Origin: Dinghuibacter silviterrae
Lineage (GTDB): Bacteria; Bacteroidota; Bacteroidia; Chitinophagales; Chitinophagaceae
NCBI RefSeq assembly: GCF_004366355.1
Contig: NZ_SODV01000001.1
Span: 3,782,001-3,846,000 of the forward strand
Direction of reading: 5' to 3'
Length of the DNA stretch: 64,000 bases
The notes beneath the pieces were generated by a model, which had not been told where the DNA came from, did no database searches, and saw only the letters and a list, made by a program, of their open reading frames with translations. Of the stretch, positions 28,413 through 32,376 are shown in pieces (the first letter of the stretch is position 1; each line of letters begins with the position of its first letter). The position numbers were made by a program, and so were the translations under genes.

Positions 28413-31085
28413 ATGAGAAAGCTTGCCACCATCGTTGGAATTATTGCATGCATCGGATTATTGCCCGCGGCGGTTGCCGCACAAGGCGTCACCGTCAGCG
28501 GAACCATACACAGCGCGGCTTCCGGAGATGTCGTCCCGGCGGTCACGGTAACGGTGAAGGGTACCTCCGCGGGGACCTTTACGAGTGACAGGGGTTTTTT
28601 CCGGTTGACGGTGCCGGGTCATTTTCCCCTGACCCTGGTCATTTCTTCCGTTGGTTTTGCCACCAAGGAAATCCTGGTCACCTCTTCCGAACCTGTGGCG
28701 ATCAACTTAGACATGGCTCCGACCCTGGGCCAGGAGGTCGTCGTTTCGGCGACCCGTGTTCCCGTAAAAATACTGGAGTCGCCGGTCTCGATCGAACGCC
28801 TCGGGCACGCGGATATCGTGGAGACACCGTCTGCCAGTTTTTATGACGCCCTGGGGCACCTCAACGGTGTGGACGTCGTCAATGCCTCCATGACCTTTAC
28901 CAGCCTCGGCACGAGGGGGTTCAACAGCAGCGGGAACACCCGCATGAACCAGCTCACCGACGGGATGGACAACCAGGCCCCCGGTTTGAACTTCTCCGTG
29001 GGGAACATCGTCGGTCTGACCGAACTGGACGTGGACAACGTCGAATTGTTGTCGGGCGCCTCTTCCGCCCTGTATGGATCGGGCGGCATGAACGGCACCC
29101 TGCTCATCACCGGGAAAGATCCCTTTAAATACCAGGGGCTGAGCGTCCAGGTCAAACAAGGCGTCAACCACGTTGGGGACCCGGACGTCGGTGCCAAACC
29201 CTATTACGACTGGCAGATCCGGTATGCCCAGGCCTTCAACAACCGGTTTGCCTTTAAACTCTCGGGCCAATACATCGCCGGTACCGACTGGGAGGCCAAC
29301 GACTATAGTAATTATTCCCAACAAGCGGGACATATCATCCCCGGTGACCGCAGCCTGTCCTCCTATAACGGGGTGAACTACTACGGGGACGAGATCAATT
29401 TTAACGTCAACCAGGCCATGCGGGCAAATGGCCTGGGGGCGCTAATCCCGGCCGGTCAGGACTCGATTGTCAGCCGCACGGGCTATCGTGAAAAGGACCT
29501 CGTCGACTACAATACGTTTAACCTGAAACTGGACGGGGTGCTGTCTTATAAAATCACCAACACCACGGTCGCCAGCGTGACGGCTTATTACGGTATTGCC
29601 AATACGGTCTATACGGGTTCCGATCGCTATGACCTCAAGAATGTAAAGATCGGGCAGTACAAGGCTGAGGTCAAGGGGCGTCATTTTTATGTGCGCGCTT
29701 ATACCACCCAGGAAAATTCGGGGGACTCTTATAATGCCACCGTCATGGCCCAGCTCATCAACGAAAGCTGGTCGCCCACCAAGACCCAATGGGCGCCGAC
29801 CTATATAAATACGTATGCCACGGAACTGGCCACCGGTCACAGCTACGCGGTGTCCCAGGCGGCTGCCCGTGCGGCGGCAGATGCCAACCGTTTGGTCCCC
29901 GGCTCTGCCGGTTGGGATGCGGCCTTCAACACGCTGAAGGGACGCGCCATCCCGCAAGGGGCCTTGTTTGTGGACCGGACCAACCTGTACGTTGCGGACG
30001 CCATGTACGACTTCGCTGACGTGTTCAAATGGGCCGACATCACCGTGGGCGCGACGTACAAACGCTATGTCCTCAACTCCAAAGGGACCCTGTTTGCGGA
30101 CACGGCGGGCACCATTCCCATCAACGAGGAAGGCGCTTACGCCCAGATCCAGAAAGGCTTTTTCGACGACCTCCTTAAGATCACGGTGGCCGGGCGGTAT
30201 GACAAAAACGAAAACTTCAAGGGCCGCTTTACCCCCCGGGTCACCGGGTTGATCAAGGTGGCCAAGGACCAGAACATCCGGTTGTCCTTCCAGACCGCCT
30301 ACCGCTTCCCGTCCACCCAGAACCAATACATCGACCTCAATACGGGCCAGGCCCGGCTGATCGGCGGCCTGCCCCAGTTTGCCAACGCCTATAACATCAG
30401 CGGGGGCTATACCTTTGATACCGCCACCCTCAACCACTATGCCGCCGGTACGGGTCAACTCACTCCCTACAAGTACCAAACGTTCAAACCCGAAAGCGTG
30501 AACTCCTATGAACTCGGCTACAAGGGTGTGATCGACAACAAGCTCCTCATCGACCTGTTTGGTTTTTACGCCCAGTATACCAATTTCATCACCACCGCTG
30601 TCCTGGTGCAATATCCCAGCACCGCCCAGCAACAGATCCTGGAGATGGCCGTCAACAGCAATACAAAAGTCAATACCTACGGGAGCGGTTTGAGCCTGGA
30701 TTACTTGTTGCCCAGTGGCTTTATCGCGGGCGGCAACGTCCTTTTCAACAAGCTCAGCAACGTACAGGCCGGGCTGGTGACGTTCTTCAACACACCCGAA
30801 TGGAAATTCAACATTTCCCTGGCCAACTACACCATTGCCAAAAAGTTCGGCTTCAACGTCACCTACCGCTGGCAGGAAAAGACCCAAACCGAAAACACGT
30901 TCATCAGCGGGCCATTGCCGGAAATCGGCACCTGGGACGCCCAGGTCTCGATGAAGCTCCCGCAAATCCACAGCATGATCAAAATCGGGGGTACCAATAT
31001 CTTTAACAAGTACTACGTCAATGAGCTGGGCGGGCCTTCCATCGGAGGACTCTACTACATCTCCTTTGGCTATAATGTATTCTAA
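28413..31085 (+). CDS. TonB-dependent receptor with carboxypeptidase-like domain
   Basis: An 890-residue outer-membrane receptor. Signal peptide MRKLATIVGIIACIGLLPAAVAA, then a carboxypeptidase-regulatory-like domain (VSGTIHSAASGDVVPAVTV), a plug domain at about residues 110-230 (QEVVVSATRVPVKILESPVS, DNVELLSGASSALYGSGGMNG) and a long barrel ending SIGGLYYISFGYNVF with the C-terminal aromatic. The plug resembles classical siderophore/vitamin receptors more than SusC. The frame is open far upstream (to 27762) but that part is antisense to purC and is not coding. Substrate unknown. Confidence 0.93.
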   Translation: MRKLATIVGIIACIGLLPAAVAAQGVTVSGTIHSAASGDVVPAVTVTVKGTSAGTFTSDRGFFRLTVPGHFPLTLVISSVGFATKEILVTSSEPVAINLDMAPTLGQEVVVSATRVPVKILESPVSIERLGHADIVETPSASFYDALGHLNGVDVVNASMTFTSLGTRGFNSSGNTRMNQLTDGMDNQAPGLNFSVGNIVGLTELDVDNVELLSGASSALYGSGGMNGTLLITGKDPFKYQGLSVQVKQGVNHVGDPDVGAKPYYDWQIRYAQAFNNRFAFKLSGQYIAGTDWEANDYSNYSQQAGHIIPGDRSLSSYNGVNYYGDEINFNVNQAMRANGLGALIPAGQDSIVSRTGYREKDLVDYNTFNLKLDGVLSYKITNTTVASVTAYYGIANTVYTGSDRYDLKNVKIGQYKAEVKGRHFYVRAYTTQENSGDSYNATVMAQLINESWSPTKTQWAPTYINTYATELATGHSYAVSQAAARAAADANRLVPGSAGWDAAFNTLKGRAIPQGALFVDRTNLYVADAMYDFADVFKWADITVGATYKRYVLNSKGTLFADTAGTIPINEEGAYAQIQKGFFDDLLKITVAGRYDKNENFKGRFTPRVTGLIKVAKDQNIRLSFQTAYRFPSTQNQYIDLNTGQARLIGGLPQFANAYNISGGYTFDTATLNHYAAGTGQLTPYKYQTFKPESVNSYELGYKGVIDNKLLIDLFGFYAQYTNFITTAVLVQYPSTAQQQILEMAVNSNTKVNTYGSGLSLDYLLPSGFIAGGNVLFNKLSNVQAGLVTFFNTPEWKFNISLANYTIAKKFGFNVTYRWQEKTQTENTFISGPLPEIGTWDAQVSMKLPQIHSMIKIGGTNIFNKYYVNELGGPSIGGLYYISFGYNVF

Positions 31086-31109
31086 AGATTAGGCCCAACC
31101 GCGCCGCGC

Positions 31110-31213
31110 GCGAAGTGGGGTGTCCGTTTTACTTCTTTTCCGCAGAAGACCCGAACGACGGCGGGCGCTTCTAACCTCTGCGGAAAAGAAGTAAAACGGA
31201 CACCCCACTTCGC
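31110..31213. repeat. 104-bp inverted repeat with 37-bp perfect arms
   Basis: Bases 31110-31146 are the exact reverse complement of 31177-31213, with a 30-nt spacer. The element lies between the convergent TonB receptor and ychF genes. The arms contain GAAGTGGGGTGTCC and TTTTACTTCTTTTCCGC words. There is no classical T tract at either end, so it is not a standard terminator, although a transcript from either side would form a very stable hairpin. Confidence 0.95.
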
Positions 31214-31275
31214 TGCAACACGGGTCGGTCTGATGACGGTAGGAGCAGTAAACCGGGTAGGTGGATCAGTGAAAA

Positions 31276-32376
31276 CTACACGTTGAAGAGGAAGTGCATG
31301 ATATCCCCATCCTCGACGACATAGCCTTTCCCCTGTACACCCAGTTTGCCATTGTCGCGGCAGGCCGCTTCGGAGCCGTATTTGATGAAATCGGCGTAGC
31401 GGATGACTTCCGCGCGGATAAAGCCTTTCTCGAAGTCGGTATGGATGACCCCTGCGGCCTGGGGGGCCAGCATACCGCGGGTGATGGTCCAGGCGCGGAC
31501 TTCCTGGACGCCGGCGGTGAAATAGGTGATGAGGTGGAGCAGATGATAGGTGGATTTGATGAGGCGGGCGACACCGCTTTCGCTAAGGCCCATGTCTTCG
31601 AGGAACAACTGGCGGTCTTCAAAGTTTTCCATGACGGCGATCTCGCTTTCGATGGCGGCGCTGACGAGCAGGATTTCGGCTTGTTCGTCCTTGATGGCCT
31701 CCATGACGGCAGCGGTGTGTTTGTTGCCGCCCACGACAGACTTTTCGTCTACGTTGCAGACGTAGATCACGGGTTTGATCGTGAGTAAACCGAGTTCGCG
31801 CAGGTATTTCTCCTTGTCTTCGGGGCTCACCTCGTAGGCGCGGGCATTTTTCCCGGCCTCCAAAAACGCCTTCAGACCTGTGAGGATCTCGTAGGCACGG
31901 GCGGCTTCCTTGTCCCCGGCCTTGGCCTGCTTTTCGATCCGGGAGATCTTTTTGTCTACGCCGTCGAGGTCTTTGAGTTGGAGCTCGATGTCGATGATCT
32001 CCTTGTCGCGGACGGGGTTGACGCTCCCGTCGACGTGGATGACGTTGTCGTCGTCAAAACAGCGCAGGACGTGGATGATGGCGTCGGTATTGCGGATGTT
32101 GCCCAGGAACTGGTTCCCCAGGCCTTCACCCTTGCTGGCACCCTTGACAAGACCGGCGATGTCAACGATCTCCACGGTGGTGGGGACGACGCGTTGGGGT
32201 TTGACCAGGCGTTCGAGTTCGATCAACCGACCGTCGGGCACGGTGATGACGCCCACGTTGGGCTCGATCGTACAGAACGGGAAGTTTGCGGCCTGGGCCT
32301 TGGCGTTGCTCAACGCATTAAAAAGAGTCGATTTTCCCACGTTGGGCAACCCCACGATACCAGCTTGTAATGCCAT
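31276..32376 (-). CDS. ychF: Ribosome-associated GTPase/ATPase YchF
   Basis: A 366-residue Obg-family P-loop protein that binds ribosomes and prefers ATP over GTP. The N-terminal G domain shows GLPNVGKSTLFNAL (P loop), the DIAGLVKGASKGEGLGNQFL switch II, and the altered G4 in YVCNVDEKS; a coiled-coil insertion (residues about 130-200) and a C-terminal TGS domain (LITYFTAGVQEVRAWTI through GYVVEDGDIMHFLFNV) complete it. ATG 32376 (MALQAGIVG) is used rather than the upstream frame start. It diverges from the SpmAB-like gene. Confidence 0.97.
   Translation of the reverse strand: MALQAGIVGLPNVGKSTLFNALSNAKAQAANFPFCTIEPNVGVITVPDGRLIELERLVKPQRVVPTTVEIVDIAGLVKGASKGEGLGNQFLGNIRNTDAIIHVLRCFDDDNVIHVDGSVNPVRDKEIIDIELQLKDLDGVDKKISRIEKQAKAGDKEAARAYEILTGLKAFLEAGKNARAYEVSPEDKEKYLRELGLLTIKPVIYVCNVDEKSVVGGNKHTAAVMEAIKDEQAEILLVSAAIESEIAVMENFEDRQLFLEDMGLSESGVARLIKSTYHLLHLITYFTAGVQEVRAWTITRGMLAPQAAGVIHTDFEKGFIRAEVIRYADFIKYGSEAACRDNGKLGVQGKGYVVEDGDIMHFLFNV

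Follow-up and report, generated by a model that had tools for sequence, protein, structure and literature searches.

We identified a dispersed family of long extragenic hairpins, with at least 37 copies in the genome of Dinghuibacter silviterrae, in which the two arms of each copy pair almost without exception whereas the arms of different copies have diverged widely from each other. Judging from the copies read, the arms evolve in concert. The reading that we prefer, and to which we give a probability of roughly 0.57, is that the family is a lineage-specific, non-autonomous extragenic repeat of a REPIN/MITE-like kind, whose arms would be kept identical by template switching.

One copy lies in the window, by which we mean the whole stretch of 64,000 nucleotides that was analysed. 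As the preliminary description had stated, it is a perfect inverted repeat between two convergent genes. Its 37-nt arms (31110-31146 and 31177-31213) are 100% complementary and 30 nt apart, and it is contained in the 190-bp gap between the gene of a TonB-dependent receptor, on the plus strand with its stop at 31085, and ychF, on the minus strand and ending at 31276. The features of this locus are as follows:

28413 to 31085, plus strand: TonB-dependent receptor gene with CarboxypepD_reg-like and Plug domains (start taken from a crude gene caller).
31088 to 31095, plus strand: left side of the outer stem (predicted fold and flank similarity to other copies).
31110 to 31146, plus strand: left arm of the perfect inverted repeat, 37 bp.
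31135 to 31141, plus strand: CTTTTCC motif within the sequence of the left arm.
31147 to 31176, plus strand: loop or spacer of 30 nt, alignable with the loops of other copies.
31177 to 31213, plus strand: right arm, the exact reverse complement of the left arm.
31182 to 31188, minus strand: mirror copy of the CTTTTCC motif within the sequence of the right arm.
31227 to 31234, plus strand: right side of the outer stem (predicted fold and flank similarity to other copies).
31276 to 32376, minus strand: gene for a YchF-type GTPase, the downstream convergent gene (gene call and domain match).

We infer that the short imperfect outer stem marks the approximate edges of the window element. The RNA fold predicted for 31085-31240 reaches -97.5 kcal/mol, against a mean of -51.1 for shuffled sequences (z = -10.55, with 0 of 200 shuffles as stable). 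On inspection of the sequence no T tract was found after 31213, where the second arm ends, and the window hairpin is, as had been claimed, unlike an ordinary terminator. A known RNA family was also considered and rejected, as the best Rfam 15 match within 30900-31400 was to a microRNA model at 27.3 bits, against a threshold of 70. A scan of the window with a minimum perfect arm length of 20 bp and a maximum spacer of 120 detected just one other repeat, at 2320-2367, which has 20-bp perfect arms and an 8-nt loop and does not carry the family core.

The preliminary description had proposed searching the genome for the element, and this search revealed the dispersed family. In the 6.5 Mb genome (4 contigs), blastn returned 23 matches; 26 places carried the core pattern CTTTTCCKYRGR-N24..36-YCYRMGGAAAAG, and none carried its reversed control. 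Trained on these 26 pattern copies, a covariance model recognised at least 37 distinct places (74 strand hits, E <= 1e-11); as 150 of 1572 candidates were scored by the model, 37 copies is a lower bound. We read 36 copies in fetched stretches in addition to the one in the window, and the 11 copies beyond the pattern set were also found to have long, near-perfect arms. A single-copy oddity or a local assembly artefact is ruled out by the presence of 37 copies in different settings.

Throughout the family the arms are 35-48 bp long (mean 40.2), the loops 21-35 nt and the hairpins about 99-125 bp, and the whole repeat unit, hairpin plus flanks, perhaps spans 150-200 bp. The G+C content of the 37 hairpins (core plus 25 bp on each side) is 48%, compared with 57% in the window. 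The motif CTTTT[CG]C occurs in all 37 copies read, 26 of which were first found by a pattern demanding CTTTTCC, and the common motif suggests a sequence that may be recognised by something. On contig C1, 29 of 30 copies lie within the first 2.32 of 4.0 Mb, with the window copy as the outlier (binomial P about 2e-6, for a cut chosen by eye), and contig C2 carries 7 copies. At one locus, L068, we also observed that a stretch of the right flank, together with some outer arm sequence, is tandemly repeated just past the element (C1:1046844-1046925), and that a perfect inverted repeat with 21-bp arms and a 9-nt loop, without the family core, lies at C1:1050084-1050134.

The best reading of the comparison with other genomes is that the hairpin family may be lineage-specific. 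In the one same-genus genome, the hairpin is absent at all four comparable junctions (those of the window, L056, L059 and L065); seven sites entered this comparison, with L055 (rearranged), L125 (no matching neighbour) and L064 (near a contig end) left out. At the window locus the flanking genes of that genome are 72-78% identical, and the gap beside its ychF (G001:C96; L080, L085) contains an ordinary-looking, bidirectional terminator-like hairpin with 11-bp arms starting AAAAGCCC. No perfect arms longer than 14 bp, with spacers of up to 60, were found in the same-genus loci around these seven sites (L085, L133, L136, L137, L142, L144, L153 and L154), and at the three sites left out no arms exceed 11 bp. 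The covariance model, run with stricter filters on 56 candidates per genome, gave no match in 58 relatives (1 of the same genus, 34 of the same family and 23 of the same order), and blastn gave no match in 38 relatives. In a collection of 84,980 species, from which very near genomes may be absent, the core pattern had six isolated and apparently unrelated hits, at which perfect pairing reaches outward just 1-11 positions, the pattern's own first pair included. Viral contigs gave 0 hits to the core pattern, and plasmids and phages no blastn match.

We examined the pairing of the arms in a fixed register of 32 pairs in each of the 37 copies, where 1182 of 1184 pairs were Watson-Crick, the two exceptions being a single C.A mismatch each in L057 and L115. 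When the register was extended by 4 pairs, past some arm ends, five G.T pairs were gained, and 6 of 1184 pairs differed within copies in a register overrunning some arm ends. Over the full arms the count is 1487 Watson-Crick pairs out of 1489, which holds partly by construction, since arm ends were placed where pairing stops. The stop is abrupt: in the six positions beyond the arm edges, Watson-Crick pairing falls to 58/222 on the outside and 57/222 on the inside. Between copies, the arms differ by a mean of 35% over 32 ungapped positions, a figure that small indels inflate, and 36 distinct arm sequences exist among the 37 copies. The copies L059 and L067 even show a one-base length difference that is present in both arms. 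Since the arms differ between copies yet pair within each of them, their symmetry appears to be maintained. The view that perfect arms indicate a recent element, put forward beforehand as one option, was therefore not borne out, as the copies stand this far apart and are still paired internally.

Changes on one side of the stem are accompanied by changes on the other. On a rapidly built tree from the left arms (36 columns) we counted 158 Fitch changes, and since the right arms fail to match at only two sites, almost every one of these changes is mirrored. In an alignment of the first 26 of the 37 copies, both-sided changes were found at 23 of 33 pairs, and the covariation score was 0.467, against 0.063-0.132 with slid partners and a shuffle mean of 0.172. 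Within the same alignment, 7 of the 15 pairs of the inner helix had changed on both sides, 8 were invariant and none was one-sided, while 92.9% of cells in the outer helix pair, with some G.U; we attribute this shortfall to copies being misaligned with each other, since the pairing read directly in each copy is intact.

The loops were scored for their orientation relative to 40-nt flanks in 666 pairs of copies, of which 661 were dropped for unclear flank or loop orientation under thresholds that we set ourselves, and 3 of the 5 pairs kept were drawn from L059, L067 and L068. In four of these five clear pairs (L067/L068, L059/L067, L060/L062 and L075/L077) the loop is inverted relative to the flanks, and in L059/L068 it is not. 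As the clear pairs have copies in common, they amount to at least three independent inversions.

Template switching is described as leaving homogenised arms and inverted spacers (PMC8604942), and both were found here, with arms more alike within copies (2/1184 pairs differing) than between them (mean 35%) and with spacers inverted in 4/5 clear pairs. The combination is the published signature of the process and thus favours copying at the DNA level over selection on an RNA, as does the near-absence of G.U in the arms. The evidence consists of end states read from one genome, the same-genus genome being without copies. In the yeast study inverted spacers were of 2-5 bp only, short spacers being favoured for switching (PMC8604942), and the loops of 21-35 nt in our family count against template switching in this respect.

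According to the preferred reading, in which template switching keeps the arms identical, the repeat would extrude at the replication fork and its arms would switch templates, as in quasipalindrome correction, with a mutation in one arm being either copied to the other arm or erased. The loop would be flipped by the same kind of event. The units may have spread as passengers of recombination or transposition activity, and hairpins would survive mainly at gene 3′ ends, with insertions elsewhere removed by selection; as a side effect they may block or stabilise the transcripts that reach these ends from either side.

The arms could also be kept paired by selection for the hairpin itself, as DNA or as RNA. 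In particular, the hairpin may be transcribed and selected as a structured RNA at gene 3′ ends (a bidirectional terminator, an RNase III site or a 3′-end stabiliser), compensatory mutations being retained, an explanation that we regard as unlikely but that has the gene context on its side. Using a crude hexamer-based gene model of our own, we placed 23 of the 37 copies between convergent genes, 13 between co-directional genes, one between divergent genes and none inside called genes, whereas 67 control gaps of at least 80 bp at the same loci comprised 7 convergent, 32 co-directional and 28 divergent ones (Fisher p = 5e-8 for convergent), a contrast that we also count in favour of the preferred reading. 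In 36 of 37 copies the hairpin is faced by one gene end or more. Our own scan found no other terminator-like site near 13 of the 23 convergent copies, namely at the window locus and at 12 others, and 3 of the 4 comparable junctions in the same-genus genome carry a short terminator-like inverted repeat, both of which observations are in line with a transcribed hairpin. The remaining 10 of 23 convergent copies are beside another terminator-like site, which speaks against it, and 4 of the 7 other convergent gaps have such a site as well. The idea that the hairpin replaced a terminator is suggestive at the window locus and not general. The neighbouring proteins offered no common theme: of 74 neighbours, 68 were searched against Pfam (4 were omitted as longer than 900 aa or out of frame, and 2 were cut by the locus edge), no family matched more than 2 of them, and the 25 families listed out of 101 are ordinary cellular ones.

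The structure of the hairpins bears on the same explanation. The predicted fold is very stable, as selection on an RNA would have it, and when loops of the AACGA type were oriented, the same strand folded better in 15 of 20 copies, which are related to each other; with the other loop type oriented, that strand was better in 4 of 11 copies, and 6 were undecided. Of the positions immediately within the arm edges, 94/222 hold a G.T or A.C pair, against 49/222 outside. Wobble at the loop base and the strand bias of the AACGA type are a hint of an RNA-level constraint. We also noticed that the base of the AACGA-type loop has many G.T-type pairs, as if the single strand mattered. On the other hand, G.U pairs, which RNA stems tolerate, are near-absent from the arms, and the two non-Watson-Crick pairs in 1184 are both C.A as read, so that they would be G.U only on the other strand. 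Nor does a T tract follow the window hairpin, other copies having been judged by eye, and selection alone would not be expected to invert loops. The hairpins may have a role at gene ends.

A further and rather doubtful proposal is a selfish bacterial hairpin without a transposase of its own, which would spread and renew itself via the replication machinery, its copies being made, or remade, perfect by copy-back or template-switch synthesis. If this were true, the hairpin would serve as the replicating intermediate and would also be the selected trait.

The perfection of the arms could instead date from the birth of each copy, with snap-back synthesis on a single-stranded intermediate turning one arm and the loop into a new copy; all copies would then be born perfect, and most would be young. 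Such copy-back birth would account for the observation that nearly all copies are perfect though mutually different, for loops in both orientations, and for a similarity extending far beyond the hairpin in some copy pairs only, among the matches listed. We nevertheless consider it improbable, since homologous flanks have been copied with the whole unit, as in L059 and L068, which are alike over 177 nt at 92.7% with flanks included, and since the single mismatches in two copies indicate that copies can age. Moreover, we know of no enzyme for a birth of this kind.

The preliminary description had offered a mobile, MITE-like element as one of its options. The part of this claim that stood is a dispersed, MITE-like family, which was presumably once mobile, whereas no matching transposase was found by the searches for a Y1 transposase and for solo arms. 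That a RAYT (Y1 transposase) moves a REPIN-type element by way of its single-stranded hairpins is already disfavoured, and very improbable, even though the family is extragenic, dispersed and hairpin-forming with compensatory changes, as outlined for REPINs (PMC3116915), and has two inverted units in one extragenic hairpin, 37 of 37 copies being outside called genes according to the crude caller. The Y1_Tnp domain (PF01797) had 0 matches in the genome at E <= 0.001, in a search that gave matches in 5 of 14 control genomes, E. coli among them, and a RAYT-driven REPIN was rejected as it stands. Conservation, too, peaks at the internal CTTTT[CG]C motif, inside the arms and not at the unit ends, which are not fixed.

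We also examined the element for the ends of a transposon. The perfect repeat was found to be central, around the loop of 21-35 nt, with a weak outer stem. A solo 17-bp arm consensus, allowing up to 1 mismatch, does not occur in the genome outside hairpins; at 2 mismatches there are 4 single matches, which by eye resemble gene sequence, and a transposon end with solo arms was rejected for this reason. The flank of one subfamily was found only beside its three hairpins and in a partial tandem copy at C1:1046897. We saw no direct repeats at the element, and the 4 orthologous element-free junctions that were compared for a target-site duplication are too diverged to fix the insertion point. A classical MITE, an insertion sequence with an internal deletion that a DDE transposase mobilises, would fit in its size and copy number, in having inverted repeats and in lying between genes (PMC10969869), but it is the least probable explanation of all, because the perfect repeats surround a short loop and have no evident place at the unit ends, direct repeats and single arms were not seen as described, and as a MITE ages its two arms should decay separately.

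The 37-copy family can be regarded as a natural experiment on what keeps inverted repeats perfect, with about 158 inferred arm changes, nearly all of them mirrored, set against 2 unmatched sites, and with loops that flip. It would allow the rate of arm correction to be measured in one bacterial genome. It also carries a warning, as covariation, usually taken to prove a functional RNA, can come from copying at the DNA level, and a perfect repeat need not be young.

According to Bertels and Rainey 2011, REPINs are extragenic, dispersed and hairpin-forming, and compensatory changes in them are common (PMC3116915); REP elements are likewise described as often lying between convergent genes (PMC1525189). 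Our family resembles them in being dispersed and extragenic, with two inverted halves in a hairpin and compensatory changes, and differs in its perfect 35-48 bp stem, its internal conserved motif and the absence of a RAYT/Y1 match. Of the published kinds, REPINs come closest in layout and habit, with two of their defining features lacking here. MITEs such as ERIC, Correia, RUP and QMITE are also small, non-autonomous and intergenic, and their transcripts can form stable folds, as summarised in PMC10969869; in our family, by comparison, the arms appear to evolve in concert, and terminal inverted repeats and direct repeats are not demonstrated. Families of bacterial stem-loop sequences are repeated, mostly intergenic and built on a common hairpin as well, with concerted evolution of the arms not mentioned in the abstract of that study (PMC2267715). 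In the mitochondria of sponges, hairpin elements are similarly dispersed and intergenic, with conserved stems and variable loops (PMC2800124), whereas here the stems vary and their changes are mirrored.

The closest parallels to the behaviour of the arms come from template-switched repeats, in which homogenised arms, inverted spacers and palindromes with concerted arms are outlined (PMC8604942, PMC8794818, PMC6649704). The process is argued to be able both to create and to maintain hairpins (PMC8794818), and concerted evolution of arms is given for palindromes in coding sequences of Nematomorpha (PMC6649704). These known cases are at single loci (in yeast genes, RNA genes and mitochondrial genes), whereas ours is a dispersed bacterial family with loops of 21-35 nt. 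No comparable family stood out in the open-access literature searched, and we describe the one found here as an extragenic hairpin repeat with a strikingly strict concerted evolution of its arms.
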